Source: an uncultured Lachnospiraceae bacterium
Lineage (GTDB): Bacteria > Bacillota > Clostridia > Lachnospirales > Lachnospiraceae
DNA length: 34,972 nucleotides
Direction: 5' to 3'
Assembly: GCA_947626395.1 (NCBI GenBank)
Contig: CANQRU010000037.1
Coordinates: forward strand, 1 to 34,972
Each line of letters starts with the position of its first letter. Within the stretch, counting starts at the first letter, position 1. The translations under genes and the position numbers were made by a program. Below are positions 3,688 through 27,407 of this stretch, piece after piece. The notes beneath the pieces were generated by a model. It had not been told where the DNA came from. It ran no database searches and worked only from the letters and a program-made list of their open reading frames with translations.

Positions 3688-4677
3688 ATGAAGAAATTAT
3701 TGTATTTGGAACTGTGCCTGCAGACCTTTGACAACACGCAGACGACCGGGACGCAGGATCTGAGCGTAGAGATGAAGACATTCTATGACCGGAACCTGAT
3801 CAAGAACGCGGAGCCGGAGCTGGTGCACGACCAGTTCGCGCAGACCCGCAACATCCCGAAGAACGGCGGAAAGAAGATCGAGTTCCGCAAGTATGACTCG
3901 CTTCCGAAGGCGACGACAGCGCTGACCGAGGGCGTCACGCCGTCCGGACGGTCGCTGAAGGTGACCAATGTGGAGGCGGAAGTGAAGCAGTACGGCGACT
4001 ATGTGGAGCTGTCTGACGTCCTGATCCTGACGGCCATCGACAACAACATCGTGGAGGCCACGGAGCTTCTGGGCAGCCAGGCCGGGCGGACGCTGGACAC
4101 GATTTCCAGGGAGTTCATGGTGGCCGGCACCAACGTGATCTATGGCGACGGATCCGTGGAGGCCCGGGAGAATATTACGGAGGCCATGAAGCTGACATCC
4201 CTGATCGTCAAGAAGGCGGCGCGTTTCCTGAAGACGCAGAACGCGAGGAAGGTGAACGGCAGTTTCTGGGGGATCATCCATCCGGACTGCTCCTTCGACC
4301 TGACAAACGATGAGCAGTTCATCGGCGTAGTGAAGTACAAGAACCCTGAGAGGATCTACAAGGGCGAGATCGGTGAGATCCATAACGTGCGGTTTGTGGA
4401 GACCACTGAGGCCAAGAAGTTCACCAGCGCTGGAGATTCAAGCATTGATATCTACGCCACGCTGATCGGCGGCGCAGACGCGTACGCCACGACCACGGTC
4501 GAGGGCGGCGGCCTGGAGACGATCATCAAGCAGCTGGGCAGCGCCGGGACTTCAGATCCGCTGAACCAGAGGGCGACGGTAGGCTGGAAGGCGCTGAAGG
4601 TGACGACGATCCTGTCGCAGCAGTACATGGTGCGCGTGGAGACTGCGTCGTCGTTCAACGACCATCAGGAGAATTAA
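3688..4677 (+). CDS. Major capsid protein, N4-gp56 family
   Basis: This 329-residue protein forms the icosahedral shell. It follows the N4-gp56 family pattern: MKTFYDRNLIKNAEPELVH near residue 30, then KKIEFRKYDSLPKAT, LTEGVTPSGR, a QYGDYVELSD stretch around 107-116, and TLDTISREFMVAGTNV near 140. Length fits the family. The first residues are unusual: a hydrophobic stretch LLYLELCLQTFDN, aligned in style with the scaffold N terminus and with the L27/Prp cleavage motif, suggests removal of about 14 residues before or during assembly. A long purine-rich ribosome site (AGGAGG around 3670) suits very high expression. The spacing to the scaffold (29 bases) and next gene (13 bases) shows one operon. 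Confidence 0.88.
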   Translation: MKKLLYLELCLQTFDNTQTTGTQDLSVEMKTFYDRNLIKNAEPELVHDQFAQTRNIPKNGGKKIEFRKYDSLPKATTALTEGVTPSGRSLKVTNVEAEVKQYGDYVELSDVLILTAIDNNIVEATELLGSQAGRTLDTISREFMVAGTNVIYGDGSVEARENITEAMKLTSLIVKKAARFLKTQNARKVNGSFWGIIHPDCSFDLTNDEQFIGVVKYKNPERIYKGEIGEIHNVRFVETTEAKKFTSAGDSSIDIYATLIGGADAYATTTVEGGGLETIIKQLGSAGTSDPLNQRATVGWKALKVTTILSQQYMVRVETASSFNDHQEN

Positions 4678-5061: not shown

Positions 5062-6801
5062 ATGATCACGGTTAAGGGAAGGGATCTGATCATTCCGGTC
5101 AATGAGCGGCAGATCGGGACGACCTATGATAACAACGCCGAGACCAGGAGGATCCGTATGGAAAGGGCGCCAGGGGGAATAGACCTGGCGCACCTTACAT
5201 ACAGGCTGGACCTGGAATACAAAAAGGACATAAAGGACACCTGTAATCTGGAAAAGGAGCTGCAGGACGATGGGATCATCCTGGTCTGGACGGTTCCTGC
5301 GTCCTGTGTGGCGGAAGCCGGGACCGTATGGATCTCTGTCCGCGGGCTGGACGCCAACGGATCTATCAAATGGGCGAGCAATAAAGGCGCACTCTATGTT
5401 TATGATACCGTAAATACACCTGGAACATATTCGGGGAGCCTGACAGAGCTCGAACAGCTTGAAGCGAATATCACCGGGAAGATGGAGCGGATCGAGTCCG
5501 GGGAAGAGGAGCGGGAGGCCAACGAAAAGATCCGGGAGCAGCAGGAGAAGAGCCGGCAGGAAGCGTCTGCCGAAGCGGTATCGGCTGTTGAGAGTGCGGT
5601 GCAGAATGCCCAGACGGCAGCAGGTAAAGCTGAGTCTGCGGCTGATGATACCAGGTCCGCCATAGAGGATGCCGGAACTGCTGCAGACGCGGCCAGACAG
5701 GCGGCTGCAAGCGTGGGGGAGTACCGTGATCAGGCCAGGCAGTATGCTGAAGCAGCGGAGCAGTCAAATACGGAAGCGGAAGGGCATGAGGAATCAGCGG
5801 CGGAATACGCTCAGCAGGCATTGCAGCATGCAGGTGAGGCTGCTGAAAGCGCTGGTGCCGCGGAAGCGAGTGCGTCCAGTGCTGAAGACTATGCGAAATT
5901 GTCCCAGAGGTACGCCGAGGGACACGAGGAGTATCCTGGAAGTGATGTGGATAACAGTGAGTATTACTGCCGGCTTGCGCAGCAGGCGAAGGAGGCCGCG
6001 GAGAAAGCCAGGGATGAAGCGGAAAATATCGTAGGAATTGATATCATGACGCCGGAAAAGGCCGGTATCGGGAAGCCGGATGATGTGACGGTCAAGGTAT
6101 CGGAGGATGGGACGCTGAGCGTACCGTCTGCAACTGCGGAATCGGCTGGAATTGTCCGGCCGGATGGGAATACCATAGGGATTAGTGGGGAAGGCCTGTT
6201 GGAATTGACAGCGGATGCGGGAAAGGTACCGGCAACGGACACCCTTAATCTTCTGGGACTGGAAGCGGGTAATGTCACGACACAGATGCTGTTGGATGCG
6301 GTTGCTGAACGGATCGCGAATAAGCTTGTAACGAATGAAGCGCTGCAGGAAAAACTGTTGAATTATATCAGTGTGGACAAGATCGTGGCGGATTTTCTTT
6401 CGGATGATCCCAAGTCGGTATTGGCAGCATCGCTGGGCAAATCGATCGATGCCAGGCTAACGGAATTACTGGAAAATTATACTCAATTAAATAGTGATGT
6501 TGCGTCGCTAAACTCCTCGACTCAAAAGATTGATTATTTTGAGTCTTTGAATATTAATTTGGGTAACATAGGAAGTAATCATTACCAGAATATAATTAAT
6601 AATTGGAATAGTTTTCCAACCGATGTACCATTTGCATGCAGGTTCCGTGATGATAATATATATAGTGTTTTTGGATACATTTATCCAGGATATATGTATG
6701 GAGGACTTCTTGTAATAGCTTATTATGAATTATTATATATAAGTAGACTTAATGGTACATTTAGTTGTCAACAATTAAATACTATGACAAACTTGTCTTA
6801 A
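5062..6801 (+). CDS. Tail fibre / receptor-binding protein, with phase-variable C terminus (expressed form, tip 1)
   Basis: A 579-residue fibre. Residues 1-125 form a beta-rich virion-attachment domain of the BppU-like type (ITVKGRDLIIPVNERQIG start, YRLDLEYKKD). About 130-330 is an Ala/Glu-rich coiled-coil stalk with many AEAA-type repeats. About 335-410 is a repeated beta region (VKVSEDGTLSVPSATAES, GIVRPDGNTIGIS). A helical neck runs to the recombination site, which encodes NSDVASLNSS (residues 477-486). The last 93 residues (tip 1, TQKIDYF... to TMTNLS) are AT-rich, unlike the GC-rich stem, and can be exchanged for three other tips. The switch should change which cell-surface receptor the phage binds. 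Assignment as a fibre is by architecture and position; attachment to a particular virion part is inferred. Confidence 0.85.
   Translation: MITVKGRDLIIPVNERQIGTTYDNNAETRRIRMERAPGGIDLAHLTYRLDLEYKKDIKDTCNLEKELQDDGIILVWTVPASCVAEAGTVWISVRGLDANGSIKWASNKGALYVYDTVNTPGTYSGSLTELEQLEANITGKMERIESGEEEREANEKIREQQEKSRQEASAEAVSAVESAVQNAQTAAGKAESAADDTRSAIEDAGTAADAARQAAASVGEYRDQARQYAEAAEQSNTEAEGHEESAAEYAQQALQHAGEAAESAGAAEASASSAEDYAKLSQRYAEGHEEYPGSDVDNSEYYCRLAQQAKEAAEKARDEAENIVGIDIMTPEKAGIGKPDDVTVKVSEDGTLSVPSATAESAGIVRPDGNTIGISGEGLLELTADAGKVPATDTLNLLGLEAGNVTTQMLLDAVAERIANKLVTNEALQEKLLNYISVDKIVADFLSDDPKSVLAASLGKSIDARLTELLENYTQLNSDVASLNSSTQKIDYFESLNINLGNIGSNHYQNIINNWNSFPTDVPFACRFRDDNIYSVFGYIYPGYMYGGLLVIAYYELLYISRLNGTFSCQQLNTMTNLS
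6491..6519 (+). repeat. Recombination site 1 (joins fibre stem to tip 1)
   Basis: The site is inside the fibre gene and encodes its residues NSDVASLNSS. It has the shared 17-bp core at 6503-6519 and the outer arm variant ATGTTG just before it. It is the only site attached to the constant stem, so crossover here decides which tip is expressed. Its orientation is opposite to sites 2 and 4. Confidence 0.88.
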
Positions 6802-6814
6802 ATATGAATTACAT

Positions 6815-7057
6815 TTAGCTTCTTTGGGTCCAAGTACCGTTTTCTAAAACGCCGTACCCAATATTTCTCATGTTATATCCGAACCATATAGCTGCTCCAT
6901 ATGTATTATCCAATTTAAAAAAGATTACGCCATTTTGAAATATGGTAGCTAGAGAAACTCCAACAGGAGCTTTTGTGTACCCTTTTTGAACATTACCAAA
7001 ATAATCAACGGTTTGTGTTGTGTCAATATTCATCAACAGATTTGCTTTATCTTGCAG
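6815..7057 (-). CDS. Silent alternative fibre tip 2 (no own start)
   Basis: Read on the minus strand from site 2, the frame continues SLNSS-LQDKANLLMNIDTTQ... and ends ...ENGTWTQRS with a stop at 6815-6817, about 81 residues after the core. It lies tail to tail with tip 1, with 13 bases between the two stop codons, so a simple inversion of 6491-7086 would fuse it to the stem. The ending GTW-T-Q-R resembles the last strand of pyocin-knob-type fibre tips, in which an aromatic and basic end is common. The segment is AT-rich. It has no convincing ribosome site, as expected for a promoterless cassette. Confidence 0.82.
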   Translation of the reverse strand: MQDKANLLMNIDTTQTVDYFGNVQKGYTKAPVGVSLATIFQNGVIFFKLDNTYGAAIWFGYNMRNIGYGVLENGTWTQRS

Positions 7058-7090
7058 CGAGGAGTTTAGCGACGTAATCTCACTATATTA
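7058..7090 (-). repeat. Recombination site 2 (tip 2 side, inverted)
   Basis: The core reads on the minus strand, with the outer arm variant AGATTA. The 33 bases 7058-7090 are identical to 8879-8911 (site 4). Read toward tip 2, it encodes EITSLNSS in the frame of the fibre, against DVASLNSS at site 1. Confidence 0.88.
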
Positions 7091-7160
7091 TTGAGAGCAA
7101 ACAGAAGTTTCAAAAAGATCATTCCTTTCGTAAAATGGACGAGAAAGGGGTGATTTTTTT

Positions 7161-8162
7161 ATGATGGAAGCGATTTTAAGAAATGTAATTGACGAGATGG
7201 CACCACATCTGGATCAGGAACAGATGGAACATCTGACAAATGTACTTTACATTAACTTCCGAGGAATGGAACTGCAGGAAAAGCGAACTGAACTGACGAC
7301 GGCAGGAGAAGATTCTGACGATGCCAAAATACGACTGTTCGTCGCCAGCAAGAAGGCTGTGAATCGGCAGACGGCTACTCTGAGGCAGTATGTGCGTGAG
7401 ATCCGAAATGTAAAGGATTTTTTAGGAAAGCGGCTGGATGACATTACAGGAATGGATTTGCGGTATTACTATGGAGTGATGCGGGAGCGGAGAGGAATTA
7501 AGATGTCTACGATGCAGACTCGAATCCATTATCTTTCGTCATTCTGGGATTTTCTTATTACAGAGGAACTGGTACATAGCAATCCAGTTAAGAAGATCGG
7601 AACGCTGAAGGTGGAGAAGGTGATTAAAAAACCGTTTTCTGCTGAAGAAATGGAAGCTCTGCGTATGAATTGTAAGAATCTGAGGGACCGGGCGCTGGTG
7701 GAGTTTCTTTATTCTACAGGGGTGCGTGTCTCTGAACTGGCCGCATTGAACGTAGGGGATATTGAGATGGGTAAGCAGTCGTTGATCGTCTACGGAAAGG
7801 GCAGTAAGGAAAGGCGGACATATCTGACTGACAGCGCGAAGTTTTATTTGAGGAGATACCTGCAGACGCGCGAAGATGATGGCATGGATAACCGGCCTTT
7901 ATTTGTTACACTCGATTATCCGCATGAGAGGTTATCGGTGGCCGGAATCCAGCATATGCTCCGTTGCTTGGGAAAACGGGCAGGAGTAGATAACGTTCAT
8001 CCGCATCGATTTCGCAGAACAATTGCAACGGATCTCTTGAACCGTGGGATGCCGATTGAGCAAGTGAAAGAATTTCTGGGGCATGAGAAGTTGGATACGA
8101 CGATGATCTACTGTACGGTGAAGGAAGAGAACGTTCAGGCATCGCATAGGAAGTATGCATAG
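7161..8162 (+). CDS. Tyrosine recombinase, probable invertase of the fibre island
   Basis: A 333-residue tyrosine recombinase of the XerC/XerD/phage-integrase superfamily. The SAM-like core-binding domain spans about 55-145 and the catalytic domain about 155-325. The catalytic set is complete: Arg189 (STGVRVSEL), Lys213 in the beta-hairpin (YGKGSKERR), His282-x-x-Arg285 (HPHRFRRT), His308 (LGHEKLD) and Tyr317 (TTMIYCTV). It lies between inner sites 2 and 3, well inside the virion gene block. That favours a role in switching the fibre tips rather than in prophage integration. An AAAGGGGTG ribosome site precedes the double ATG, and the second ATG (7164) is equally possible. No clear promoter is seen in 7087-7160. 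Its AT content is higher than in the structural genes, suggesting separate ancestry. Confidence 0.9.
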   Translation: MMEAILRNVIDEMAPHLDQEQMEHLTNVLYINFRGMELQEKRTELTTAGEDSDDAKIRLFVASKKAVNRQTATLRQYVREIRNVKDFLGKRLDDITGMDLRYYYGVMRERRGIKMSTMQTRIHYLSSFWDFLITEELVHSNPVKKIGTLKVEKVIKKPFSAEEMEALRMNCKNLRDRALVEFLYSTGVRVSELAALNVGDIEMGKQSLIVYGKGSKERRTYLTDSAKFYLRRYLQTREDDGMDNRPLFVTLDYPHERLSVAGIQHMLRCLGKRAGVDNVHPHRFRRTIATDLLNRGMPIEQVKEFLGHEKLDTTMIYCTVKEENVQASHRKYA

Positions 8163-8263
8163 AAGTCGGTAAGATATTTTGGGGCGGGCGGAGACGGTCG
8201 CTTTATTAAGTTTTGGCAAAAATATATGCGATGGAAAGGAAGCGAGAGAATTAACTAAATGAT
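8163..8263. other. Spacer between recombinase and site 3
   Basis: About 100 bases with no open frame of note and no clear terminator. It contains GGGGCGGGCGG followed by AT-rich DNA. I see nothing else that can be supported here. Confidence 0.4.
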
Positions 8264-8292
8264 ATAGTGATGTTACGTCGCTAAACTCCTCG
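8264..8292 (+). repeat. Recombination site 3 (tip 3 side)
   Basis: Same orientation as site 1, with the shared core at 8276-8292 and outer arm ATGTTA (one base different from site 1). Read through, it encodes DVTSLNSS in the frame of tip 3. As a direct repeat of site 1, recombination between the two would delete 1,773 bp, including the recombinase gene. Confidence 0.88.
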
Positions 8293-8562
8293 CGCAATTC
8301 TGGCATGATAACCCGACTTGAAGATGCAAACGACGGTATTATGAGCGCTGGAGATAAAGTGTATTTTTATATTGTATCGTGGGGAAAGAACACCCCCAAT
8401 CCCAGTCATACTTATTTTATTATCCATGCGGTTGCCGCTGTTAACAATGATGCGGTTCAATTGGCTATAGGATATAAAGGCACTGGCGGTGAAGAATCAG
8501 CGGGAAAAATATTTACACGATATTGTTTCCAAAAAACGTGGAGTGAATGGATTCAGCAATAA
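8293..8562 (+). CDS. Silent alternative fibre tip 3 (no own start)
   Basis: Continuing in the site frame, the cassette reads SLNSS-RNSGMITRLEDANDG... and ends ...FQKTWSEWIQQ at a stop in 8560-8562, 89 residues after the core. An internal ATG at 8305 makes it look like a small gene, but no ribosome site precedes it and the open frame runs through from the recombination core. The layout (YIVSWGKN, then AVNNDAVQLAIGY, then W-S-E-W at the end) is that of pyocin-knob-like C-terminal domains of phage fibres. To be expressed, segment C must first be inverted and then the whole island. Confidence 0.85.
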   Translation, partial: RNSGMITRLEDANDGIMSAGDKVYFYIVSWGKNTPNPSHTYFIIHAVAAVNNDAVQLAIGYKGTGGEESAGKIFTRYCFQKTWSEWIQQ

Positions 8563-8602
8563 AGAATAGCGCTTCTTCCAAATGGCAACATCGATTTGAA
8601 TT

Positions 8603-8878
8603 TTAAATCGCAGTAACATTTATTTTTACCCAAGGTTTCATCTTCCACTCCGTTTTATTCGAAGCTTTGTAAAAAATATATTCAACATTTATCTGGTACG
8701 GACAAATAAACACCGATGCCGTGTCCATGCCGGCGGCACGGAACCACAAAACATTTGAATGCGCGCATATGCTGTTGTCCGGAGCGCCCGTAAATGGACC
8801 TTCTCCAACTCGATAGATTCCTGATTCATGATAAAAATCGTCAAAATCAAAAGCCTCAAAAAAATATGACTTTAATGT
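8603..8878 (-). CDS. Silent alternative fibre tip 4 (no own start)
   Basis: Read on the minus strand from site 4, the frame continues SLNSS-TLKSYFFEAFDFDDF..., passes GIYRVGEGPFTGAPD and ends ...EWKMKPWVKINVTAI at a TAA (8603-8605), 91 residues after the core. It has no usable start of its own, so gene finders would miss it. The IYRVGEG opening and W-K-M-K-P-W ending again look like a knob-type fibre tip. It lies tail to tail with tip 3, with 40 bases between the stop codons. One inversion between sites 1 and 4 would fuse it to the stem. Confidence 0.85.
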   Translation of the reverse strand, partial: TLKSYFFEAFDFDDFYHESGIYRVGEGPFTGAPDNSICAHSNVLWFRAAGMDTASVFICPYQINVEYIFYKASNKTEWKMKPWVKINVTAI

Positions 8879-8911
8879 CGAGGAGTTTAGCGACGTAATC
8901 TCACTATATTA
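8879..8911 (-). repeat. Recombination site 4 (right edge of island, inverted)
   Basis: Identical over 33 bases to site 2 (7058-7090), including the outer ATATTA end. It is the rightmost copy, and the DNA beyond it (8912-8998) leads to the next tail gene without further copies. Confidence 0.88.
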
Positions 8912-8958
8912 CTTAGTAACCCTCATTTCATCCGCATTCGTGGGGTGGGGGAATTCTG

Positions 8959-8983: not shown

Positions 8984-8998
8984 TAGGAGGTGGTGGGT

Positions 8999-10225
8999 GT
9001 GTCGGTTTTCAATATGCAGGAGTATTCGGGATCTGAGGATATAAAAAAGGTCAAGAATTATCTGTATATGCTGAATGAGCAGTTAAGGTATATGTTCGCG
9101 AATATGTCGCCGGAGGAGAATTTCTGTCCGACTGCGCTGGAGCAATATAAAGAGAATGAGCGGCAGATTAAGGATAATTTGGGCATGATCAAGGACGCGC
9201 AGGGGAACATCTCTATCCTGGAGCGGACAGCGTCTTCACTGACATCGCAGATCCAGGATGCCCAGGGGAATATTTCGACACTGCAGCAGACGGCGACAAC
9301 TCTTACGTTGCAGATCCAGAATGCCCAGGGAGATATCTCGACGCTGCAGCAGACGGCGACATCGCTGACATCGCAGATCCAGAATGCTCAGGGGGATATT
9401 TCAACGCTGCAGCAGACGGCGACATCGCTGACATCGCAGATCCAGAATGCTCAGGGAGATATTTCAACGCTGCAGCAGACGGCGACATCCCTTACGTCGC
9501 AGATCCAGGATGCCCAAGGGAACATCTCGACACTGCAGCAGACCGCGACATCGCTGACGTCGAAGATTCAGAATGCACAGGGGGATATTTCCAAGGTACA
9601 GCAGAAAGCGGATCGGATCGACTGGGTCGTGGACAGCAGGTCCGGATCGTCCGGATCATTCACGCTAACCAGCCGGATGGCGTCTCTGGTGGCAGACAAT
9701 ATTGACCTGACAGGGTATGTGACGTTTAACAGCCTGAAGGATTCAGGAAAAACAACGATAAATGGGGACAATATTACGACGGGAACGATCGATGCAAAGC
9801 TGCTGGAGATCGGCGGGAAAAAGGTATTTGCTTCAAAAAACGGACGATTTTATGTGTACGAGGATTTCATGAATTATGATGTGTCGAGTTTTAAGGCAAC
9901 GAACCTTACTGCAGGTACATTAACGGTCAGTACGATTCAGAGTTCAGGAAGCAGCGTTTCGGTGGGAGATGATATGGAGATCAACGGGCGGCTGACCGTA
10001 TCAAATATTACCCTGAGGAGCGGAGGATCCATATCCGGATTTAAGGTGAGTCCAAGTTTTTCAGGGAGTACGCTTTCATCCTATTCATCCATAACCATGA
10101 GCGGAGGAAGCACGACGAATCTCACAAATACTCTGAGTTCTGTAGTGGGGTGGATGAATAATAACATACCTAAGATCATCACAGCAGTGAACGGACTCAT
10201 TGAATGGGCCGGAAAAATATCCTGA
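8999..10225 (+). CDS. Phage tail/fibre structural protein with 21-residue coiled-coil repeats
   Basis: A protein of about 408 residues starting MSVFNMQEYSGSEDIKKVKNYL. GTG 8999 was chosen because AGGAGG at 8985-8990 lies 8 bases upstream; the GTGs at 8990 and 8993 overlap that site. The opening NYLYMLNEQLRYMF is common in Firmicute phage tail proteins. Seven 21-residue repeats follow (three heptads each, QIQNAQGDIS type), forming a long helical rod. After that comes a beta-rich region rich in Ser, Thr and Gly (TINGDNITTGTIDAKLLEI, LTAGTLTVSTIQSSG), like collar and tip segments of fibres and tailspikes. It lies directly after the invertible island and may be a partner or adaptor of the switching fibre. 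Confidence 0.75.
   Translation: MSVFNMQEYSGSEDIKKVKNYLYMLNEQLRYMFANMSPEENFCPTALEQYKENERQIKDNLGMIKDAQGNISILERTASSLTSQIQDAQGNISTLQQTATTLTLQIQNAQGDISTLQQTATSLTSQIQNAQGDISTLQQTATSLTSQIQNAQGDISTLQQTATSLTSQIQDAQGNISTLQQTATSLTSKIQNAQGDISKVQQKADRIDWVVDSRSGSSGSFTLTSRMASLVADNIDLTGYVTFNSLKDSGKTTINGDNITTGTIDAKLLEIGGKKVFASKNGRFYVYEDFMNYDVSSFKATNLTAGTLTVSTIQSSGSSVSVGDDMEINGRLTVSNITLRSGGSISGFKVSPSFSGSTLSSYSSITMSGGSTTNLTNTLSSVVGWMNNNIPKIITAVNGLIEWAGKIS
9185..9625 (+). repeat. Seven tandem 63-bp repeats in the tail gene
   Basis: Seven in-frame copies of a 63-bp unit encode 21-residue helical repeats. Units 3 to 5 encode identical peptides but differ at silent positions, so they are maintained at protein level rather than freshly duplicated. 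The first and last copies are the most diverged. Because the unit is three heptads, gain or loss of copies would lengthen or shorten the rod without breaking frame or register. Confidence 0.9.
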
Positions 10226-10480: not shown

Positions 10481-10829
10481 GATGGTGACGGATTCCGGAA
10501 ACGGTCAGTATGACGCGGATCAGATCACGGCCTGGATCAGTGAGATCGAAGGACAGGCCGTCGACGAGGTCATAAACCATGCGGAAGGGGATGAAGTGGA
10601 GTTTAGGGATCTGGATTATGGACTTGATCCGGACAGGGAGCTGCTGATTCCTGACCGGTTCCGTGATGTGTACTTATATTATGCGCGGGCGAAGGTGGAC
10701 TTCCTGAATCAGGAAACGGAACGGTATAACAATGACGTGGCCATGTTCGACGCCGCGTATACAGGATATGCGGCATGGTTCAGGAGGACGCACCGGCAGA
10801 AGTGCCAGGTGAGTTTCAGCCGGATGTAG
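10458..10829 (+). CDS. Putative head-tail connector / adaptor protein
   Basis: 123 residues starting MTLRDIVEMVTD at ATG 10458, which has AAGGAG at 10443-10448. Upstream in-frame starts lie in the preceding gene and lack such a site. The protein is mostly helical and acidic (AWISEIEGQAVDEVINH, LIPDRFRDVYLYYARAKVDFLNQE). This size, helical make-up and position just before a gp10-like hub protein fit a P22 gp4-type or similar adaptor that extends the portal. The family link is inference from context. Confidence 0.55.
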   Translation: MTLRDIVEMVTDSGNGQYDADQITAWISEIEGQAVDEVINHAEGDEVEFRDLDYGLDPDRELLIPDRFRDVYLYYARAKVDFLNQETERYNNDVAMFDAAYTGYAAWFRRTHRQKCQVSFSRM

Positions 10830-10840
10830 GAGGTGAAGGG

Positions 10841-12409
10841 ATGGGAAGGCTTCCGTATGTTGCATCCGCTCCAAGGGAAGGGACACTGAGGGCAATGGAG
10901 TTCCTGGGACTGAACCTTGGGACGGTGATCACGGACAATGAATTTGCGGACATGTGGAACATGTCAACAGAGAAATACCCGGCAGTATCCGCCCGCCAGC
11001 GGCGCGGAAAAGTGCAGAAGAGCCTTGCAAAACCGAATGGGATCTTTTATAAGGATGGTCTGGTGTACGCCGACGGAACGCAGCTCTTCTATAAGGACAG
11101 GAAGATCGCGGATGTGGCGGATTCGAAGAAGACATTTGTGGGGATGGGGGCTTATCTGCTGATCTGGCCGGATAAACTTATCTATAATACATCCACGGGC
11201 GTCATGGAGCATATGGAAGCTTCCTGGAGCCAGACGGCGCAGGCAACCTTTGAGCCTCTGCAGGAAGGCTCTACGCTGATCCGGGTATCCTGCACGGGGA
11301 TCGGGAAGGATTTTCGGCAGTATGACGGTGTTACGATGGCCGGATGCAGCAGGGAGCCGTTTAATAAGACGTTCGTGATCCAGGAGATCGGGGATGACTA
11401 TATCGTGATGACCGGGGACCTGACGGAGCGTTTTACGCAGCCATCGGGGCTGACGCTGAAGCGTACTGTACCGGACATGGACTTTGTGTGTGAGAATGAA
11501 AACCGGGTATGGGGATGTTCCAGCAGGAACCACGAGATCTATGCAAGCAAATTGGGGGATCCCAGCAACTGGAATGTTTTTGAAGGGATCAGCACGGATT
11601 CGTATGCGGCGACCATCGGGTCTGACGGCGCCTTCACCGGGTGTGTATCATACCTGGGGTATGTAATGTTTTTCAAAGAGGATGCAGTGCATAAGGTCTA
11701 TGGCAGTAAGCCTTCAAACTACCAGGTGATGACGTCGGGGATCAATGGCGTCGCGGCAGGCTGCGAAGGAACAGTGGCAGTGGTGAATGAAACACTGTAC
11801 TATGTGGCCCGGAACGGAGTATATGCGTTTAATGGGGCGCAGCCGGAGATAATTTCACAGAAACTGGAAGGCCTGTCGTTCACGGCCGGCGCGGCCGGGG
11901 TGTACCGGAACCGGTATTATGCTTCCCTGAAGGATCCGACCGGTGCATGGCGTGTCTATGTATATGACGCCTTGCGTGGGCTGTGGTCGAAGGAAGATGA
12001 TCTGCATTTGTACGGATGTGCATGTGGGGCAGGGGAACTGTACTGCATCGATGCGGACGGGAATCTGTTTACAATAGCTGGTGACAGGGACGAGACGATC
12101 GACTGGATGCTGGAGACAGGGGATCTGCTGGAGAATGCGCTGGAGTTCAAGCATATACGGAGAATACTATTGTATTTCCGGATCGAAGCCGGTGCGGAGC
12201 TGAATGTGAGCGTCATGTATGACAATGACGGCGTATGGAATCCGGAAGGGACATACAGGTCGGGACATTACCGGACGCGGACAGTAAATCTGGTGCCGAG
12301 GCGGTGCGTGCATTACCGGATCCGGCTGCACGGTACCGGAGATGTGACGCTGCTGGGCATGGACCGGAAAGTGGGCTATGGAACGGAGATACGGGGAAGT
12401 TACCGATGA
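10841..12409 (+). CDS. P22 gp10-like tail hub / DNA stabilization protein
   Basis: 522 residues, beta-rich. ATG 10841 follows AGGAGGTGAAGG directly, while more upstream starts fall in the preceding gene. It contains repeated short strand motifs suggesting a beta-propeller or barrel: GIFYKDGLVYADGTQLFYKD near 65-85, VWGCSSRNHEIYASKLGDPSNWN around 225-247, then YYVARNGVYAFNG and WRVYVYDALRGLWSKEDDLHLYG. The GCSSRNHEIYAS...NW pattern is typical of gp10-like or related hub proteins of short-tailed phages, which close the portal channel after packaging. The exact family is not certain. Confidence 0.65.
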   Translation: MGRLPYVASAPREGTLRAMEFLGLNLGTVITDNEFADMWNMSTEKYPAVSARQRRGKVQKSLAKPNGIFYKDGLVYADGTQLFYKDRKIADVADSKKTFVGMGAYLLIWPDKLIYNTSTGVMEHMEASWSQTAQATFEPLQEGSTLIRVSCTGIGKDFRQYDGVTMAGCSREPFNKTFVIQEIGDDYIVMTGDLTERFTQPSGLTLKRTVPDMDFVCENENRVWGCSSRNHEIYASKLGDPSNWNVFEGISTDSYAATIGSDGAFTGCVSYLGYVMFFKEDAVHKVYGSKPSNYQVMTSGINGVAAGCEGTVAVVNETLYYVARNGVYAFNGAQPEIISQKLEGLSFTAGAAGVYRNRYYASLKDPTGAWRVYVYDALRGLWSKEDDLHLYGCACGAGELYCIDADGNLFTIAGDRDETIDWMLETGDLLENALEFKHIRRILLYFRIEAGAELNVSVMYDNDGVWNPEGTYRSGHYRTRTVNLVPRRCVHYRIRLHGTGDVTLLGMDRKVGYGTEIRGSYR

Positions 12410-13725: not shown

Positions 13726-16700
13726 ATGGCAGGGACGAAAAAAACGGCAAAGGACACACTTATCAGGAACCAGCAGAAGAAGAGGAAGGAAGAATATGAG
13801 AAAAGCGGTACCGTATCGCGGCAGTCAGACATCGCCGGGTATTCGGCGCAGACGCTGGAACGGTACGGGATAGACAGCGGGAAGGTTCTTGGAAATAGAT
13901 CAAATGCGGGATCCGCCGCTGCGGGCAGCGGGTCGGGAAGGGTGAAATCCTCGAAAGGGGATTTCATTTCTGCATACAGGGACAGGACTGCTGGCGGGAC
14001 AGTGACAGGAACAGCCGGAGGTACGAATTACAATAACTGGAAGAGGGGGATCCTTACCCAAGAGCAGGCGGCACAGAGAGAAACAGCAGCGACGCCTGAG
14101 AAAACGGATCTTGAGTTTGGCAAGAGCAGCAAGCGGGATATCGTAGCAGATGCGAGGAAGCGCGGGCTGGCCAAAGCTGAAGCTATGGCGCAGGAAAAAG
14201 AAGAGAGGAAAAAAGGGACGACGACATCTGACGGTTACCTGGAATATGCTTCGGTTCCGGGACTGGCTGATTATCTTACCCGCGCGGAGGCAGGTAAGGC
14301 GACGGCGGACCGGGAACAACGGGGCCTTGGTACTGCGATGGATCTCCTGGGGCTTTCGCTTGCCGGACCGGTCGGTCTGGCTGCAAGCCGGCGGCTGAGG
14401 AAGAGCGAGGAGCGCACGGCCGGCCAGATGGATGAAACCGAGGAGGGGATCTATGCATACCTGTATGACCGGTATGGTATGGCAGCGGCGGAACAGTACA
14501 AGGATACGCTCCGGGGTGATTTGAACAGGAAGTACATGGAGCAGCTGGAGGGCAGGGAAAAGGAGAACGCGGCGCGGAATCCGCTCCTGTCGGTCGTGAA
14601 GGACGTCTATATGGCGGTGCAGCAGCCGGTGGAATACATAGATTCATTGGGGCTGGGAATTGCGGACAGACTGACCGGCCGCGACATGCTCGATCCCAAT
14701 TCGCCGATGTTCACGGCGACAGCCACGACGGGCGCAATCCGTGAGGGGATCAATGAGAATGAAAGTTTAAAGCGGATGGTTCCGAATGAAACGGTAAGGG
14801 GGCTCCTGACTGGTACGGGCCTTTCCATGGCGGAGACGCTTGCCAGGCTGCCGATGGGGAATGCGGGACTTGCCTTTGCTGCAGGAGGGGCGGCATCGTC
14901 TGCGGAGCGGGATGCGCTTCAGGCCGGGGCCGGGGACGGCCAGGCAATCCTGCGCGGTGCAGCGCAGGGGGCGGCGGAAGCGTTATTTGAAAAAGTTTCG
15001 CTGGAAGGCCTTGAGAGGTTCAAACCAGGGGCGGTGACTGGTGTAAGAAGTTTCCTGAAGAATATGGGGAAGCAGGCATTCACGGAAGGATCGGAAGAAT
15101 TCTTCACTGAAATCGCGAACACGGCGAGCGATGCGGCGATCATGGGGGAACTGTCTGATTACAATCAGAATATCCGTAACTACCGTCAGGAATACATGGA
15201 TCAGGGAATGAGCGAAGAGGAAGCCGATAAAGAGGCCAAGTGGTCGGCTTTCCGGGATTTTCTGGGAGGCCTTGGGCTTGCCGCTGCCGGCGGCGCGCTT
15301 TCCGGCGGACTCATGGGCGCCGGGGCGCAGGGCTTATCGCTGGCGTCGGAGTATGCCCAAGGAAGACCTTATAACCCGGATTTCAGGGACTATGCGCAGG
15401 GGATCGATACGGATGCTGGAAATTTCACGAATGCAAAGGATTACTGGCAGGCAAGGCAGCTGCAGAGAACCGCGGAGGAGTATGCGGCCCGGCAGGGGAA
15501 CGGGGAAACGGTGAACCCGATCCTGCGAAGCCGGTTTAAGAATGACCTGGAGGGATATATTGCGAATGTGGCGGAGAGTCAGACTCGGCAGCAGGAGCGG
15601 CAGACACAGGCGCGCTCTGATGCGGAGGAGCTGCTGCGGCGGTACCGGGAAAGGCAGATGGAGAACCGGGGCGCTGAGACGGCCGCAGGGGCGGATTCTG
15701 CCTTTTATGAGGGAAATACCGCAGCAACTACGGAAAACGGCACAGCGGCGGCGCCTGCCGGTCAGAGTGCGGTCCAGGCGGTTCAGGATGCGGTTGTGAA
15801 CGGACGGGACGCGTCTGCGGAGATGAGCCGGCAGGCAGCGGAGCAGATGGCACGGCAGGCAGTACAGAGCAGCCTTCAGGATGAGGCGGAAGCATATGCG
15901 CGGGAGACCGCTGCCGCCGGGCAGCAGATGGAGACAGTTGAACCGGGGCAACTTGAGGAAACGCCTGTGAGAGCCGCAGAGCCGTTTATGGACAGTTATG
16001 AGGGAAATACCGGTGTAAGTGAGGAAAGCGGCACAGCGGCGGCAGCAGACGGCCAGACAGGGATGCAGGGGGCGGCGGAGCAGTATGCGCGGGAGACCGC
16101 TGCGAATAGGCAGCGGGGGACGTCTCGTGTCAGCAACGAGCAGCTGGACCTGTACGGGGAGGACTACGGTGCGGAGGGCAGGAAGGCATTCAGGGATGCC
16201 TACCGGATGAACGAGGGGACGGACATGGAATCCTATTACCGCGCTTTTGCGCGGCAGTACAATGTGGGCCGCTACAATATGACACTTTCCGCAGGGAACC
16301 AGGCGGCGGTAGCGGCCGTACTGACGCCGGAGCAGATGGAAGCGGCTTACCGGGCGGGAGCCAGGGACCGGAATGCGGAGATCGGATATGATCCGGAGAC
16401 CTATGAGATGCGCGGGATGCGGCAGGGGACTGCCAGGACAGGCGGGCTTGCGGAAGCATCTCCGCTTGCTTCGGATGCGCAGAAGCGTGTGGCGGACGCG
16501 GTCGGGAAGCGGACCGGATTAAAATTCGTATTGACGGATGATGGGGAGGCTTCCGGATCCTATCGGAAGGGGGAAGTCCGTATTTCTGTGAATGCAAGGA
16601 ATTTCCTGGGGACCACGTCCCACGAATTGACCCATTTCATCAAGGAATATTCTCCGGATATGTACCAGATATTTGAAGACAGGACGCTTGGGTACCTGTC

Positions 16701-19700
16701 AGAAGCGGACGGTATGGATCTGGAATCGATGGTGAGATCTTACCGGGCAAGGTATGAGCAGGTCGGCCAGACTCTTTCCAGGGAAGAAATCATGGAGGAG
16801 ATCGTGGCCAATGCGACGGAGCGTTTCCTGAATGATCCGGAGTATGTAGATAAGATCGCGGGGGAGAATCGGAGCCTGGGAAGGAAGATTCTGGATTTCA
16901 TCAATGACGTGATCGATGCGATCAAGAGCCTTATTCGTACGGAAGCGGGCGGCACCAGGGCGGCGCGTGCGTTGGAATCGGACCTGGATCACCTGGAAGA
17001 ATGCCGGGAGCTTTGGATGCAGGGGCTGGAGGAAGCCGGCGAGAGGTATGCGTCGGGGATGGAGCTGAAAGAAAGGTCTGAAGGGACGGACGAGCGGTTT
17101 AAGCTGGCGAGGCCGGACCAGGTGACAGACGAACAGATCGAGGAGAATTACCAGTCCGTGCGGGAGATGGAGCCGGTGGCGGAGCTGACCGGGGAGGAGT
17201 TTGCAAAAGCGGATGGAACAATTAAGGAACAGGTTGGACGGTTCTTTGACAGCATAGGGAATGTGGCACATAACGATGTGGTAGGTGATGTGATTCTGAA
17301 TCTGGAAAGCATACGTGATGATATCGCGCATGGCGTATCCAGAAATAAGGTGGCATCCTATATGGCGGTTCCTGATGTGATCCGGAACGGGCATGTATTG
17401 GATTATAGCGGCCAGCGAGTTGTTATGGGAGCCAAGGTAATAATGGGAGGGGAGGAATACTTTGAACTGTGTATTGCCACGGTGAACCAGGAGAACCGGC
17501 TGTACCTGCATGAAGTCTGCGCAGTCAAAACGGATGAGAATGCGCCGTTCTGGACTAAGGCGGCCAAAAGCCGGAGACTTAGCGGGGCTTCTCACCCGTC
17601 TCCTATGAGTATATTCAAAAAGCTTATTTTTGTCAATGCCACGGGAGAAAATAGTGATGCGAAGGTTTTCCGTTATCAACTGGAGAACGTGGATGCAGAT
17701 GGAAATGAGATGAGCCGGGAGCAGGAGGAGTATTTCCGGAATTCTAAGGTGAGGGATAAAAACGGAAGGCTGCTGGTGATGTACCATGGGACGCCGGACG
17801 CCAGTTTTACGGAATTCCGGGAAGGTACATATTTCACACAGAACAAGGCCTATGCGGACGGATACCAGGCTCCTGGGGCGAGCATGCTGACAAAGAAGCA
17901 GTCGGCGCCGAATCCTGGGACATATAAGGTATATCTGAACATAGAAAAGCCGTTTGATACGAGAATTCCGGCGGTGAGGAAAGTATGGGACACCATGTTT
18001 TACAGAAAATGGGGAACCGGTACGCCTCTGCAGGACAGCGGACTTCCGGACTGGACGGACGGCACGGATATCCAGGAGTTCATCGAGGAGGAAGGACTTG
18101 ATTATGATGGGATCGTACTGGACGAAGGCGGGTATTATGACAGGAACGGCGGGCTGATGAAGCGCGGGGAATCCTATATGATCATGAGCGCAGAACAGGT
18201 AAAAAATATTGATAATAAGAGGCCGACGCGGAACAGGGATATCCGTTATCAGTTGGACGGCGTGGATGTGGAGGAGATGGAGGACAAGAATCTTGTGGCC
18301 ATCCATAACCTGTCCGAGGAGAGGCTGCTGAATAACCTGGAGCTGGGCGGTTTCCCGGCGCCGAGCATCGCGATCGGGAAAGCGGATGTCGGTCATGAGG
18401 GGTATGGGGATATCTCTGTTGTGTTCCGGAAGGAAACGATAGATCCGGCGGATCGGAGAAACCATGTGTTCAGTGCCGACGCGTATACGCCGAGGTTTCC
18501 GCAGATCGACTATGCGGTGAATGAGGGTGAGGCGAAGAAGCTGGCGGACCGATTTGGAATGAGCGAGGGTTACCTGGAAGCAAATGTACTGGACGGGGGC
18601 GATCCTGAGCGCGCGGCGAAAAGGATGGAGGACCTGCGTGAGGTAAGGGAGACTTACATCCGGGAAAAAGGGATCAAGGTGGAGCCGGTGGCGCATATGC
18701 CTTCGATGTCTTATATCAATGGTGGAAATGGGGTAAAGCAGTTTTTATCCAGGACGGATGTGACGTTTGACGGCATTCTCCGGGATGCGGATATGCGCAG
18801 TGCGTATGTTGCGAGCGCAGTACAGGGACTGAAGCAGGATGTGGCGTCGAAAAGGACGGATACACTTAACAGGAGGCTGGACAGGTGCCTGACAGACCAG
18901 GAGGAATATGATAAGAACCAGAAACTATTTGAAAAGGATATGCGTGTCGCCAGGGGAGAAGCGCAGCCGCAGCTGGATCAATACAGTTATGAGGAAGGCG
19001 TCAATAACGCGATCGGGGAGCACCGGGCGGATTACCAGAAATATGTCCGTGATCTGCTTGCGCCGGCCTTCGGGGACAGGTATATCCGGAACAGCCGGGA
19101 GAAGCTGACCAGCAGCGGCAGTAGCAGGAGCTTCCGGGAGCTGCATTACCCGTACACACTGGAAAATATTGTACGTGCGATGAATGAAGGCGAAGGGATT
19201 AAGAACCGGGAGTCCGGTCTGATGACCGGTGCCGGAGAGATCCGAGCAGCCGTTTCCAGAGAACTGGGAAGCATAGAGGATATCCGGAGTGAGAGCGCCA
19301 GAATCCAGAACATTTCTGACGAGGAGATCGGGAAGATTTATGGAGAAATGGATCGAATGATGTTGGAAATTACGCGGCGCTTATCATCGATGGATGGGAA
19401 TGAAAACCAATTCATAGCGATGGATAATGCATCCGGTATACTGGTAGAGGCGTATGGTGCAGGGAAGACGAGACAGAGGATCAGGAGAGTCATCGAAGGA
19501 TATTATGGGAAGATCCCGGATGAGCTGATGGACCGCATCATGCAGCTGAGGGAGTACGCGGCGCAGATCCCGGTGAAGTATTTCGAGGCGAAGCCAATGC
19601 GGCCGATCGGTATGGATGAGGTGGCGGCCGTGGTGCTGCCGGAGACGTCGAGCGAGACCCTGAAGGAGAGGCTGTTAGAAGCAGGCGTGAAGACGGTGGA

Positions 19701-22700
19701 GTACGATCCGGATGAACCGGGGGCGCGGAAGCGCGCTGTGAACGATCTGAAAGGCGTGCGTTTCCAGCTGGAGGATGTGGACGATTATGAGGCGCAGATC
19801 AATGACCTGCTCCATGAGAATGAGGAGCTGCGGTCGGCGAATGAGATGCTGAAGCGGGAATTTGAACTGACATCGAAGGATGCGCTCCGGCAGGAGGATA
19901 TCCATAAGGTAACAGGGAAGATCCTGAAAAAGTATAACAGTGGCCTGGATCAAGGTACCCTGGACCGGAATGTGGGGAAACTGTATGAGTATATCCGGAG
20001 CTCTGAGCAGGTGGACGGCCGGGAACTGTCGCAGGTGGCGGCCGATATCGGACGCAGTATCCTGATGCAGTCAAAACAGAAGGATACGACTTTTACAGAG
20101 CAGTATAAAGAGCTTAGAAATTATATTAAAAACAGCCCTGTCATGATCTCAGAGCAGGATCGTAAGGACCTGGCAGCGGCTGGCGGCTACAATGAATTCC
20201 GAAAGAAGTATTTCGGGAAGATAAAGCTGGGCAATAAGGGAATGTCTGTGGACAGTTTCTATGAACAGCTGAATGAGATGGATCCGAATTGGTTTAATCT
20301 CGATATCACTCATCCGGCGGACAGGCTGATGACGATTGCAGGTTTCCTGGACGCGACGGACGCCCAGGTAAGGAATCCGTATCATGCCAACATGGATGAA
20401 ATGTCGTACATGGTTGGACAGGAGCTGCTGGAGGCGTATTTTGACGTACGTTCCCCGAAGCCTACGTTTGCGGACAGGCAGGCACAGGAAGCGGATAGGA
20501 TCCGTAGGGACTACAGTCGGAAGATGGCAGAATATAAAAGGAAGATCAGCAACCGATATGAGGCGATTCTGGCGGAGCGGGACCGGGATATGGCCAGAAC
20601 GAAAGATGCCCATGCCCAGGAGCTGCTGGCGCAGAAGGCGAAGTATGAGAAGCAGATCCAGTTGAGGAGGGAGTCGCTGCAGAAGCGGGAAGCGAAGACC
20701 CGGATCATCCGGGAAGTGAACACTATGCGGAAGTGGCTGCTGTCCCCGACGGACACGAAGCATGTACCGCAGCAGCTCCGGACGGTGATGGCGGATTTCC
20801 TGGGATCCATTGATTTTTCCTCGAAGGAGGATATCAACGGGGTACAGACGCAGAGGACACAGCTGTGGCTGGAGGCGAAAGCTGCGTTTGACCAGATCGC
20901 CAATGCTGGAGGAATGATGACGGATGATGAGGGAAATGTCCGTTATCTGGATCTGGATCCGGATCTGCAGGAGCGGTTCGGGGAGATTGCAGGGAAGGTG
21001 AAGAACCTGGACAAGCTGGAGAACCTGGATTCCTATACCCTGGAGGAGGTTTATAAGACGGTACTTGCGATGAAGAAGGCTGTTACCGAGGTGGATGCCA
21101 TGAAGAGTAACGCCAGGTATCGGAAAACGAGCATTCTGGCAGATGAAGTATTTGAAAACCTGGATGGAAGGAAGACGAAAACGGAGTATACGAAATGGGC
21201 CGGAATGCCGGGGAAGCTGTTAAATTATGATATGGTGGATCCGCTGACAATGTTTAACCGGATGGGGCCGGCTTTCGGTACCCTGTATGATTCCCTGAGG
21301 AATGGACTGGATAAGAAGACGCAGCTTCTGAAAGAAGCGGAGGATTATTTCCGGAATGCGATGGAAGAGAATGGTTTCGCGGAGAAGGATGTGAGGAAAC
21401 TGACCGGAATGAATGCGGATGTGAAGGAGTTTTCACTGCCACAGGGGAAACTGAAGCTGTCCGTGGCACAGATCATGTCCCTGTACGAGCTGGACAAGCG
21501 CGGCCAGGCGCAGAAGCACATCTATGACCGGGCCGGCGGGATCAGGCCGGCGGATCGGCAGACAGGCTTTTCGGCCGGAAAGGACGGCGTAAGGCTGCCT
21601 AAGCTGGACAGGGCAGAGAAACCGCTGCGGGTATCGAAGGAACAGGTAAGGATGATCACGGACACGCTGACGCCGGAGCAGAAACGGCTTGCAGATGCTA
21701 TGCAGCAGTTTATGGGGGACAGGGCTGCAGCGTGGGGGAACGAGGTTTCTATGGAGATGTACGGGTATGAGAAATTCACTGCGAGGAATTACTTCCCGAT
21801 CCGGACAGATCAGAATTATGTGTTCCGCGATGAAAATGGGCAGGCAGAGATCACGATCAAAAACCTTGGAATGACCAAGAGTACTAATGCGCACGCGAAC
21901 AATCCGATCATTATAGAGGATATCTTCGATGTGTTTACGCGCCAGGCAGACCAGATGAGCAGTTATAACGCCTATGTGCTGCCGCTATCGGATCTGCATA
22001 AGGTTATGAATTATAAGGATATGCGGGGCAATGCCGGTGGCGCCAGCATCCAGGATGAGCTGCAGAGGGTCTTTGGGAAAGACGGCAGGGATTATATTGA
22101 CAAGCTGGTGAAGGATATCAACGGGAGTGTACAGGGAGAGAAGGGAGGCGTCAGCGATATGTTGCTGTCGAACTTCAAAGCGGCCAGCGTAGCCGGTAAC
22201 CTGCGCGTTGCGATCCAGCAGCCTACAGCCATTGCCAGGGCGTACGCAGAGATCGACCTGAAATACCTTGCGAAAGGGACGGCGACGCCGGGAAAAGGAA
22301 AATGGGATCTGATATGCAGGTACGCTCCGATCGCACAGTGGAAGGACTGGGGATTTTACAGGATGCAGACATCCCGGCAGATGAAGGACATCCTGACGGG
22401 CTCTGACAGTGCGAAGCAGAGGTTTGTAAACCGAACGATGATACTGGCGGAAAAGGGGGATCAGGTGGCCTGGGAACGGCTGTGGAACGCCTGTGAGGCT
22501 GAGTGTCAGGAAAAGCATCCGGAACTGGAGAAGGGAAGCGAGGATTTCTACAGGAGAGTAGGAAAGCGGTTCTCGGGTATCGTGGACCGGACGCAGGTCG
22601 CAGATTCGATCCTGCACCGGACACAGATCATGAGGAATACAAACGGGCTTGTGAAGATGGCGACCAGCTTCATGGGTGAGCCGCTGAAATCCTACAACAT

Positions 22701-24152: not shown

Positions 24153-24362
24153 ATGGAAAAGAAAGGAGCGGAAAACGTGCTGGACAGAATATCAAAACTG
24201 ATAGATGTCAAGTCGATTATGACGCTGGTTCTGACAGGGGGATTCATCGGACTGACTATTACTGGGCAGATTTCGGGGGATCAGTACCTGACCATTTATA
24301 CGGCGATCATCGGCTTTTACTTTGGGACCCAGATGCAGAAGAAAGCGGATAAAGCGGAATAG
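24153..24362 (+). CDS. Holin
   Basis: 69 residues with two hydrophobic helices, about 20-38 (SIMTLVLTGGFIGLTITGQ) and 44-60 (YLTIYTAIIGFYFGTQ), and a charged C-terminal tail (MQKKADKAE). Size, topology and position between the XhlA-like gene and the amidase are those of a holin, which opens the membrane so that the amidase reaches the wall. GGAGG precedes the ATG. Confidence 0.75.
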   Translation: MEKKGAENVLDRISKLIDVKSIMTLVLTGGFIGLTITGQISGDQYLTIYTAIIGFYFGTQMQKKADKAE

Positions 24363-24384
24363 GAAAAGGAAGGGGAGATATGAT

Positions 24385-25260
24385 ATGAAGATCTGTTTGG
24401 ATGCCGGCCATTATGGCAAGTATAACCAGAGCCCGTGTAATTCGGCATATTATGAGAGCGATATGGTGTGGAAGCTGCACCTGTTGCTTAAGAAGCGGCT
24501 GGAGGAGTACGGCGTCACGGTCATCACGACGCGGCCGAACCAGGAGACGAACCGGGCGCTGTATGACCGCGGGGCGGCGTCGGCTGGATGCGGCCTGTTC
24601 CTGTCGCTGCATAGTAATGCGGTAGGAAGCGGACGGAATGATACGATTGATTATCCTGCCGCCTACTGTGCGATTAACCACAGTGCAGATGATATTGCCG
24701 CAAAGCTGGCCGCGTGCGTGGAAGCTGTGATGCAGACGAAGCAGGAAGGCCGCATTGAGCATGTACCGGGGAAGAACGGCGATTATTACGGGGTTGTCCG
24801 TGGGGCGACGGCCGTAGGGACGCCGGGGCTGATCCTGGAGCATTCGTTCCATACCAACGCAAGATCGACGGCCTGGCTGATGGACGACGGCAACCTGGAG
24901 AAAATGGCTCAGGCGGAGGCGGATGTGATCGCACTGCATTATGGCCTCACGAAGCAGCAGGCGCAGCGGCCAGCTGGCTGGTACGAGGATGAAAAAGGCT
25001 GGTGGTACCAGAATGAGGACGGGACTTATCCGAAAGGGTGCTGGGCGTGGCTGCGGGAGGCAACAGGCGGCACTGAGGGCTGGTATCTTTTTGATGATGC
25101 CGGGTATATGCTGACCGGGGCGCAGATCGCACCGGACGGAAAGATGTATTACCTCTGTGAGGCGCCTGGTATCCACGAGGGACAGTGCATGGTCACGAAT
25201 GACCAGGGAGTTCTGCGGATTGCAGAATATGACATGGAAAGGCGAAGATATAAGCTGTAG
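24385..25260 (+). CDS. N-acetylmuramoyl-L-alanine amidase (endolysin) with C-terminal wall-binding repeats
   Basis: A 291-residue endolysin that cuts the bond between muramic acid and the stem peptide. The Amidase_3 domain covers about 1-190, with metal ligands His9 (DAGH), Glu24 and His76 (LSLHSNA) and catalytic Glu152 (LILEHSFHTN). The C terminus (about 195-291) carries choline-binding-type repeats, GWYEDEKGWWYQNEDGTYPKG and GWYLFDDAGYMLTG, for wall attachment. ATG 24385 starts right at the conserved KICLDAGH strand and has GGGGAG upstream; longer frames overlap the holin. It is the last phage gene before the host junction. Confidence 0.88.
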   Translation: MKICLDAGHYGKYNQSPCNSAYYESDMVWKLHLLLKKRLEEYGVTVITTRPNQETNRALYDRGAASAGCGLFLSLHSNAVGSGRNDTIDYPAAYCAINHSADDIAAKLAACVEAVMQTKQEGRIEHVPGKNGDYYGVVRGATAVGTPGLILEHSFHTNARSTAWLMDDGNLEKMAQAEADVIALHYGLTKQQAQRPAGWYEDEKGWWYQNEDGTYPKGCWAWLREATGGTEGWYLFDDAGYMLTGAQIAPDGKMYYLCEAPGIHEGQCMVTNDQGVLRIAEYDMERRRYKL

Positions 25261-27291: not shown

Positions 27292-27386
27292 CGGTTTGAA
27301 TCGGAAACCGCACAGCCGGAACTGTGTGGTTTGATATTGCGGCGGCAGGACAGCCGCGGTATGTGAGATCAGCCGCCTCGGGCGGC
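27292..27386 (+). other. Structured leader of pepF
   Basis: An 11-bp stem (AAACCGCACAG at 27305-27315 with CTGTGTGGTTT at 27322-27332, one G-T pair) can form. Its left arm can instead pair with CGGTTT at 27292-27297, so the two folds exclude each other. A GC hairpin, GCCGCC-TCG-GGCGGC (27372-27386), sits just before the ribosome site. No known riboswitch class was recognised. Confidence 0.4.
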
Positions 27387-27407
27387 AGAGAGGAGATCGA
27401 ATACAGC

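Follow-up and report, generated by a model that had tools for sequence, protein, structure and literature searches.

Introduction

The Rci shufflon of plasmid R64 relies on a tyrosine recombinase and several inverted segments to choose among the C-termini of a tip protein, the pilus adhesin of the plasmid, with the recombinase lying outside the shuffled segments. Here we analysed a stretch of 34,972 nucleotides (nt) from an uncultured Lachnospiraceae bacterium (the window, i.e. positions 1-34972 of contig 37, CANQRU010000037.1), the whole assembly (GCA_947626395.1) comprising 3,457,157 base pairs (bp) in 87 contigs. The window carries a phage fibre gene that is continued by an island of four recombination sites, four alternative gene ends (tips) and one recombinase gene, and we consider it highly probable that this island is a self-contained multi-state DNA inversion system, i.e. 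a phage tail-fibre shufflon, in a Lachnospiraceae prophage with a P22-type portal. It shares with Rci the tyrosine recombinase, several invertible segments and alternative C-termini, but the gene that it completes belongs to a phage virion block and does not encode a conjugative pilus adhesin. With regard to a diversity-generating retroelement, we note that the tips of the island vary as whole blocks and not by point changes.

The invertases Min, Gin and Cin of the coliphages p15B, Mu and P1 are serine recombinases (PMC6109161). There, as proposed for the window island, inversion selects among tail-fibre C-termini, but the window island contains a tyrosine recombinase. The closest known kind is the Rin shufflon, described in dnaJ2 prophages of Bifidobacterium (PMC6109161) and also in Eggerthella lenta prophages (PMC8778435). 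Rin and the window island are alike in being phage-borne, in joining a constant N-terminal part to unrelated C-terminal tips that each start with a short repeat, and in having an Xer-like tyrosine recombinase beside the tips, a likeness of layout and description. The Rin recombinase is portrayed there as XerD-like and devoid of an N-terminal arm-binding domain (PMC6109161). It is located at one end of the array, whereas that of the window has a central place between sites 2 and 3, and the rix site has 11 bp (TTCCCTAACCC), whereas the window site spans 29-39 bp of other sequence. The phage and host group is also a different one. Inversions of Rin were observed between related genomes (PMC6109161), and the rearranged forms reported here come from two related prophages of Hungatella hathewayi, not from the window island. 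New with respect to Rin are thus the central recombinase, the two tail-to-tail tip pairs and the occurrence in Lachnospiraceae phages of different build; searches of the open-licence literature yielded no description of such an island from this family.

Results

Four alternating sites place four tips in the frame of one fibre stem

A reading made from the letters of the window (the sequence-only reading) had described four 29-bp sites in alternating orientation. A pattern search that allowed two variable bases and up to three mismatches returned 4 matches in the order + - + -, as compared to 0 in 100 shuffles. Site 1 (6481-6519, plus strand, 29-bp unit 6491-6519) adjoins the stem and is followed by site 2 (7058-7096, minus strand, unit 7058-7086), site 3 (8254-8292, plus strand, unit 8264-8292) and site 4 (8879-8917, minus strand, unit 8879-8907), which forms the outer end of the island. 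All four sites share, letter for letter and in the same order of orientations, a 17-bp core, CGTCGCTAAACTCCTCG, and no further copy with up to two mismatches exists elsewhere in the assembly (reversed control, 0 matches). The repeat around the sites extends to about 38-39 bp. Judged by eye from a site matrix, the left part of the site, roughly RCTMARTNAWATAGTGATTTA, is conserved in relatives; the right part is common to the four window sites, and another version of it is common to the genomes G023, G015 and G021. The sole exact core match in IMG/VR (L005) turned out to be an isolated 17-mer on an unrelated contig and was dropped.

The constant stem (5062-6490, plus strand) is joined in the assembly to tip 1 (6520-6801, plus strand), so that the fibre gene spans 5062-6801. 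Tip 2 (6815-7057, minus strand), tip 3 (8293-8562, plus strand) and tip 4 (8606-8878, minus strand) are silent. From each site only the frame of the stem is open, for 93, 80, 89 and 91 residues, respectively, and the other frames run for at most 9 residues. This corroborates the claim of four different tips in frame with the stem as well as the lengths given for tips 1, 3 and 4; tip 2, stated to have 81 residues, has 80 when counted from the same point. The tips are arranged tail to tail in two pairs, with two cassettes on either strand, again as described, and tip 4 has no usable start codon and is missing from the open reading frames of at least 60 amino acids that begin with ATG, GTG or TTG. 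Frames at least as long as those of tips 1-4 arose in 0, 15, 30 and 41 of 5000 Markov-1 resamplings, respectively. The guanine-cytosine content of the two tip pairs (30.7% and 39.8%) is lower than that of the stem (55.3%) and of the recombinase gene (46.5%).

The left arm of site 1 encodes TQLN, and the left arms of sites 2, 3 and 4 each contain a stop codon. The same pattern emerged from a hand count of 11 islands with more than 100 open codons ahead of the stem site, where a stop is present at 20 of 23 silent sites and at 0 of 11 stem sites. With L083, L084 and L098, in which only 50, 89 and 41 open codons, respectively, precede the presumed stem site, the figures become 26 of 32 and 0 of 14. 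The count does not include L091, L096, L097 or the sites at the contig ends of L120, L121 and L123.

The stem has no Pfam match; in PHROGs it matches phrog_25888 (function unknown, 1.2e-34) and, more weakly, tail-fibre and tail families (from 1.2e-5). Neither the stem nor any of tips 1-4 had a relative in pattern-based searches of IMG/VR, and tip 2 had no match in INPHARED. Among 299 genomes of the family the sole match of tips 1, 3 and 4 was the window itself, and among 26 genomes of the genus tip 4 matched its own sequence only. Scanning 21 tips together gave a match of one tip to one Pfam family (0.00036, probably by chance) and matches to 14 PHROGs families, each hit by one or two of the tips; tail-fibre or tail families make up about half of the 14. 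Predicted structures had a mean predicted local distance difference test score of 47.5 for tip 4 and 61.1 for tip 2. Their position at the fibre end and the tail-fibre family matches suggest that the tips may bind receptors, which is among the least certain points of this analysis.

A tyrosine recombinase resides between sites 2 and 3

The region between sites 2 and 3, on which the sequence-only reading was silent, encodes an Xer-like tyrosine recombinase of 333 amino acids (7161-8162, plus strand; Pfam Phage_integrase, 6.2e-37, and Phage_int_SAM_1). Its reading frame is intact, and its alignments with XerC-like, XerA and XerD chains extend across the positions that we take to be catalytic (arginine, lysine, histidine and tyrosine). 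Pfam domains on the protein are limited to the core-binding and the catalytic domain; residues 1-60 match no family, yet they align in relatives that cover residues 1-333. The enzyme is likely the invertase of the island, and we infer that it acts on the four sites. Because a recombinase is resident, the island would be self-sufficient.

One might instead regard the enzyme as a phage integrase or a passenger to which the site copies are unrelated, given that Pfam and PHROGs label it an integrase. We consider this extremely unlikely. The gene is located inside the virion gene block, NCBIfam Xer models match it only below their cut-offs, and its relatives are likewise flanked by such sites in phages that are built differently. 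Moreover, 16 of 18 control recombinases are separated from the family in the recombinase tree, the other two (L045, L046) joining it on long branches flagged as unsure.

Some related recombinases lie in islands of the same layout

Matches to the recombinase at E 1e-60 or better were found in 38 of the 299 family genomes; named close relatives are those of H. hathewayi DSM 13479 (two copies), bacterium D16-56, Hungatella sp. UBA5385 and Lacrimispora celerecrescens 152B. The phages that carry the recombinases of L081, L006 and L007 encode a baseplate wedge protein (phrog_6), as opposed to the P22-type portal of the window phage. According to the site matrix, four sites in the order + - + - with the recombinase between the second and the third are present in the window, L043, L081, L082, L083, L084, L007 and L098. 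The matrix was built without L082, L007 and L098, the sites of L082 being almost those of L081. It scores the window sites at 26-30, and weaker stray matches are found inside tip 1 (14.3) and at 26730 (16.9). Stem and recombinase gene point in one direction in the window, L081, L082, L093 and L008 but in opposite directions in L043 and L007.

In a stricter test we counted exact 11-mers with two alternating copies on either side of the recombinase (2+2). This pattern was present at 16 of 37 family loci and at 0 of 16 control tyrosine recombinases; the 37 loci were chosen by us as close relatives plus most of the best of 43 recombinase matches and include related loci (L081/L082 from one genome, L153/L163, L157/L158). 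One of the 16 is L182 (MT835621), a phage scaffold from human faeces. Eight further family loci gave 0 of 8 under the strict test, and hence 16 of 45 in total. Several loci failing it reach a contig edge, and the matrix adds L043, L083, L084, L007 and L098, so that 11-mer and matrix-only cases together amount to 21 of 45, among which L096 is doubtful as its four sites derive from a 99.96% tandem duplicate that could be an assembly artefact. Exact inverted repeats of at least 14 nt occur near 27 of 36 family recombinases and 1 of 16 controls, but the 11-mer count is the better test because some of these repeats are not sites (e.g. in L146, L151 and L093).

L091 (3841-7724, Lachnospiraceae bacterium C49_72_CC_BP) deviates from this layout. 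It has four alternating copies, but one of them lies to the left and three to the right of the first recombinase, and two opposite recombinase genes, on segments that are 89% identical and bounded by sites, surround one tip pair.

An inverted tip pair in Hungatella hathewayi

A rearranged island was identified by comparing the two prophages of H. hathewayi DSM 13479, L081 and L082. One tip pair is 98.8% identical over 563 bp and inverted, and the recombinase side and the DNA outside the island are collinear. A base that differs between sites 3 and 4 stayed with the flanks, and therefore the exchange occurred within 20 bp, AATGATATAGTGATTTAGCT. We had considered an exchange in the CGTCGC part of the site and dropped this idea, as the H. 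hathewayi data place it in the 20 bp around ATAGTGA. For the window the exchange point is placed no closer than within the 39-bp repeat.

The other tip pair differs between L081 and L082, and the 100%-identical block of the two islands starts inside the recombinase gene rather than at a site, indicating that ordinary homologous recombination was involved. The same block start weakened the idea that the recombinase and the second tip pair move as a unit bounded by like-oriented sites.

Tip 2 recurs on another stem and in another species

If inversion exchanges tips, relatives should carry another tip on this stem, as the sequence-only reading had anticipated, and G023, a genome of the same genus, does so. 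The prophage that it harbours is of the same type, with 80.6% identity on one side of the island and 77.2% on the other, and its stem, 80% identical over residues 1-485, is joined to an unrelated tip. Its island has two tips, both differing from those of the window, and no recombinase. Contig C112 of G021 is 88% identical to the stem at the DNA level.

Conversely, tip 2 was found at 95.2% identity over 249 bp in G017 (locus L122), another species of the genus, where it is in the expressed position, closing the fibre gene of a different phage in frame. Apart from tip 2 and the site, L122 and the window match at the DNA level only at the amidase gene. A phrog_30004 match shortly before the site is common to the stems of the window, L122 and L081, and the stems of the window and G017 are thus not wholly unrelated. 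The tip-2 phage of G017 also encodes a radical SAM gene among its virion genes (L122 6701-8038, Pfam 6.2e-15). Tip 4 matches the expressed tip of the D16-56 prophage L093 (41% over 91 amino acids, 5.9e-19), and tip 2 has a weak match to a tip of L043 (30 amino acids, 8.8e-4).

These findings raise the question of whether the island is mainly a platform that trades tips between phages in one cell, with inversion as a by-product. The tip 2 match begins exactly at the site end, and the similarity between window and G023 stops at site 1 and resumes at site 4. Similarly, in the pairs L160/L182 and L153/L163 the phage flanks and the recombinase show 87-97% identity, and little DNA between the sites is shared beyond stretches of up to ~113 bp beside them, apart from the recombinase and, in L160/L182, a stem-like stretch of 479 bp; the site-bounded recombinase segments of L091 fit such trading, too. 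However, opposed sites and the inverted H. hathewayi pair are what a switch predicts, the identical block in H. hathewayi begins inside a gene and not at a site, and the unmatched DNA of L160/L182 runs on for ~1.5 kb past the outer site. Exchange as the main function therefore seems unlikely to us. A broader proposal, that the sites serve Lachnospiraceae phages of different build as a shared standard for docking tips and that the recombinase also exchanges tips and its own segment between co-resident phages, we put forward tentatively, as a possibility that is rather doubtful at present.

The stem-like stretch of L182 (6030-6504) is located between the recombinase and the third site, is 80.6% identical to the stem end of L160 and looks like a second, partial stem copy.

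Two-tip islands without a nearby recombinase are present in prophages of the genomes G023 and G017 of the genus and perhaps of G008, also of the genus, whose contig ends 431 bp past the second site. No close relative of the recombinase was found in these assemblies (94, 98 and 92% complete). Recombination of like-oriented sites was computed to remove the recombinase and leave one tip pair, and the two-tip islands may have arisen by such a deletion, or they could represent the ancestral state. Contigs C112 and C66 of G021 and C12 of G015 terminate at sites or within 54 bp of them, which could reflect mixed arrangements, or repeats.

The island is part of a prophage end

Upstream of the fibre gene the window encodes a P22-like portal (252-2267; Pfam 5.5e-32, phrog_156) and a major head protein (3688-4677; phrog_1357), and downstream of the island an internal virion protein match (10775-12409; phrog_511) and an amidase (24322-25260). 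Virion genes are followed by genes of cellular type, a peptidase M3 (27324-29210) and a glycoside hydrolase of family 2 (30915-33506), and the window is therefore a prophage end. The gene after the island (8990-10225, plus strand) contains five overlapping copies of a 189-nt repeat spaced by 63 nt, and its product, which matches predicted coiled-coil families and Gp58, is probably a second fibre or stalk protein. A phage protein of 3333 amino acids (13726-23727, plus strand) combines PBECR5 nuclease-like and ADP-ribosyltransferase polyvalent domains (Pfam). Promoter-like (8 vs 7.4 shuffled) and terminator-like matches (3 vs 1.7) in the island are near the shuffled level.

Discussion

An invertible four-tip fibre island, as first proposed by the sequence-only reading, is still the best explanation of the locus, given the stem and tip of G023, the inversion in H. 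hathewayi and tip 2 in G017. Directly seen are the layout of the island, a recombinase frame and tip frames without interruption, the inversion between two relatives and a silent tip in the expressed position elsewhere. The island is intact and very probably a working switch. Inversion probably joins one of the four alternative tips to the fibre, and the phage can thereby probably change its binding target.

In the mechanism that we propose, the Xer-like recombinase would cut and rejoin oppositely oriented sites. Inversion between sites 1 and 2 would make tips 1 and 2 trade places on the stem, inversion between sites 1 and 4 would flip the whole island and bring tip 4 to the stem, and tip 3 would follow after a further inversion, whereas inversions between sites 2 and 3 or 3 and 4 would rearrange the silent part. 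By computation, inversion of opposed sites reaches 16 arrangements, four per tip. Because the exchange falls within the site, the products should stay in frame and only the last ~80-95 residues of the fibre would change. The likely outcome would be a virion population mixed for binding tips.

Several observations weigh against this interpretation. None of tips 1-4 has a Pfam or PHROGs match at 0.01, and for tips 1 and 3 neither the pattern-based IMG/VR searches nor the 299 family genomes provided a relative. At the family level 21 of 37 and 8 of 8 loci fail the strict 2+2 pattern. The H. hathewayi inversion is one between two prophages and not inside one population, and the silent short tip of the shared pair has 44 amino acids in L081 and 65 in L082. 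The island would also have to escape deletion between like-oriented sites. Finally, the assembly, which provides assembled sequence alone, contains one arrangement and no mixed forms. A single arrangement would also suit a relic, i.e. a former switch that is now fixed with tip 1, as would the two-tip islands of G023, G017 and G008, which have no recombinase nearby. Here, however, the recombinase frame, all four cores and all four tip frames are intact, which makes a relic very unlikely. That the switch is active at present in this strain we suggest with reserve, as another of the least certain points.

As a candidate for a receptor-binding switch, the island is compact and self-sufficient, and it recurs in differently built phages of a common gut family. 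Its sites are defined exactly, a candidate enzyme can be named, and one exchange has been mapped in a type strain, H. hathewayi DSM 13479. A single assembled genome understates the tips that a phage can display, and the silent tips escape gene finders. If the sites are indeed a docking standard, the system would amount to recombinase-mediated cassette exchange in nature, the recombinase of another phage could refill two-tip islands as platforms that had been stripped, and receptor-binding tips would form a shared pool in Lachnospiraceae phages, somewhat like integron cassettes.

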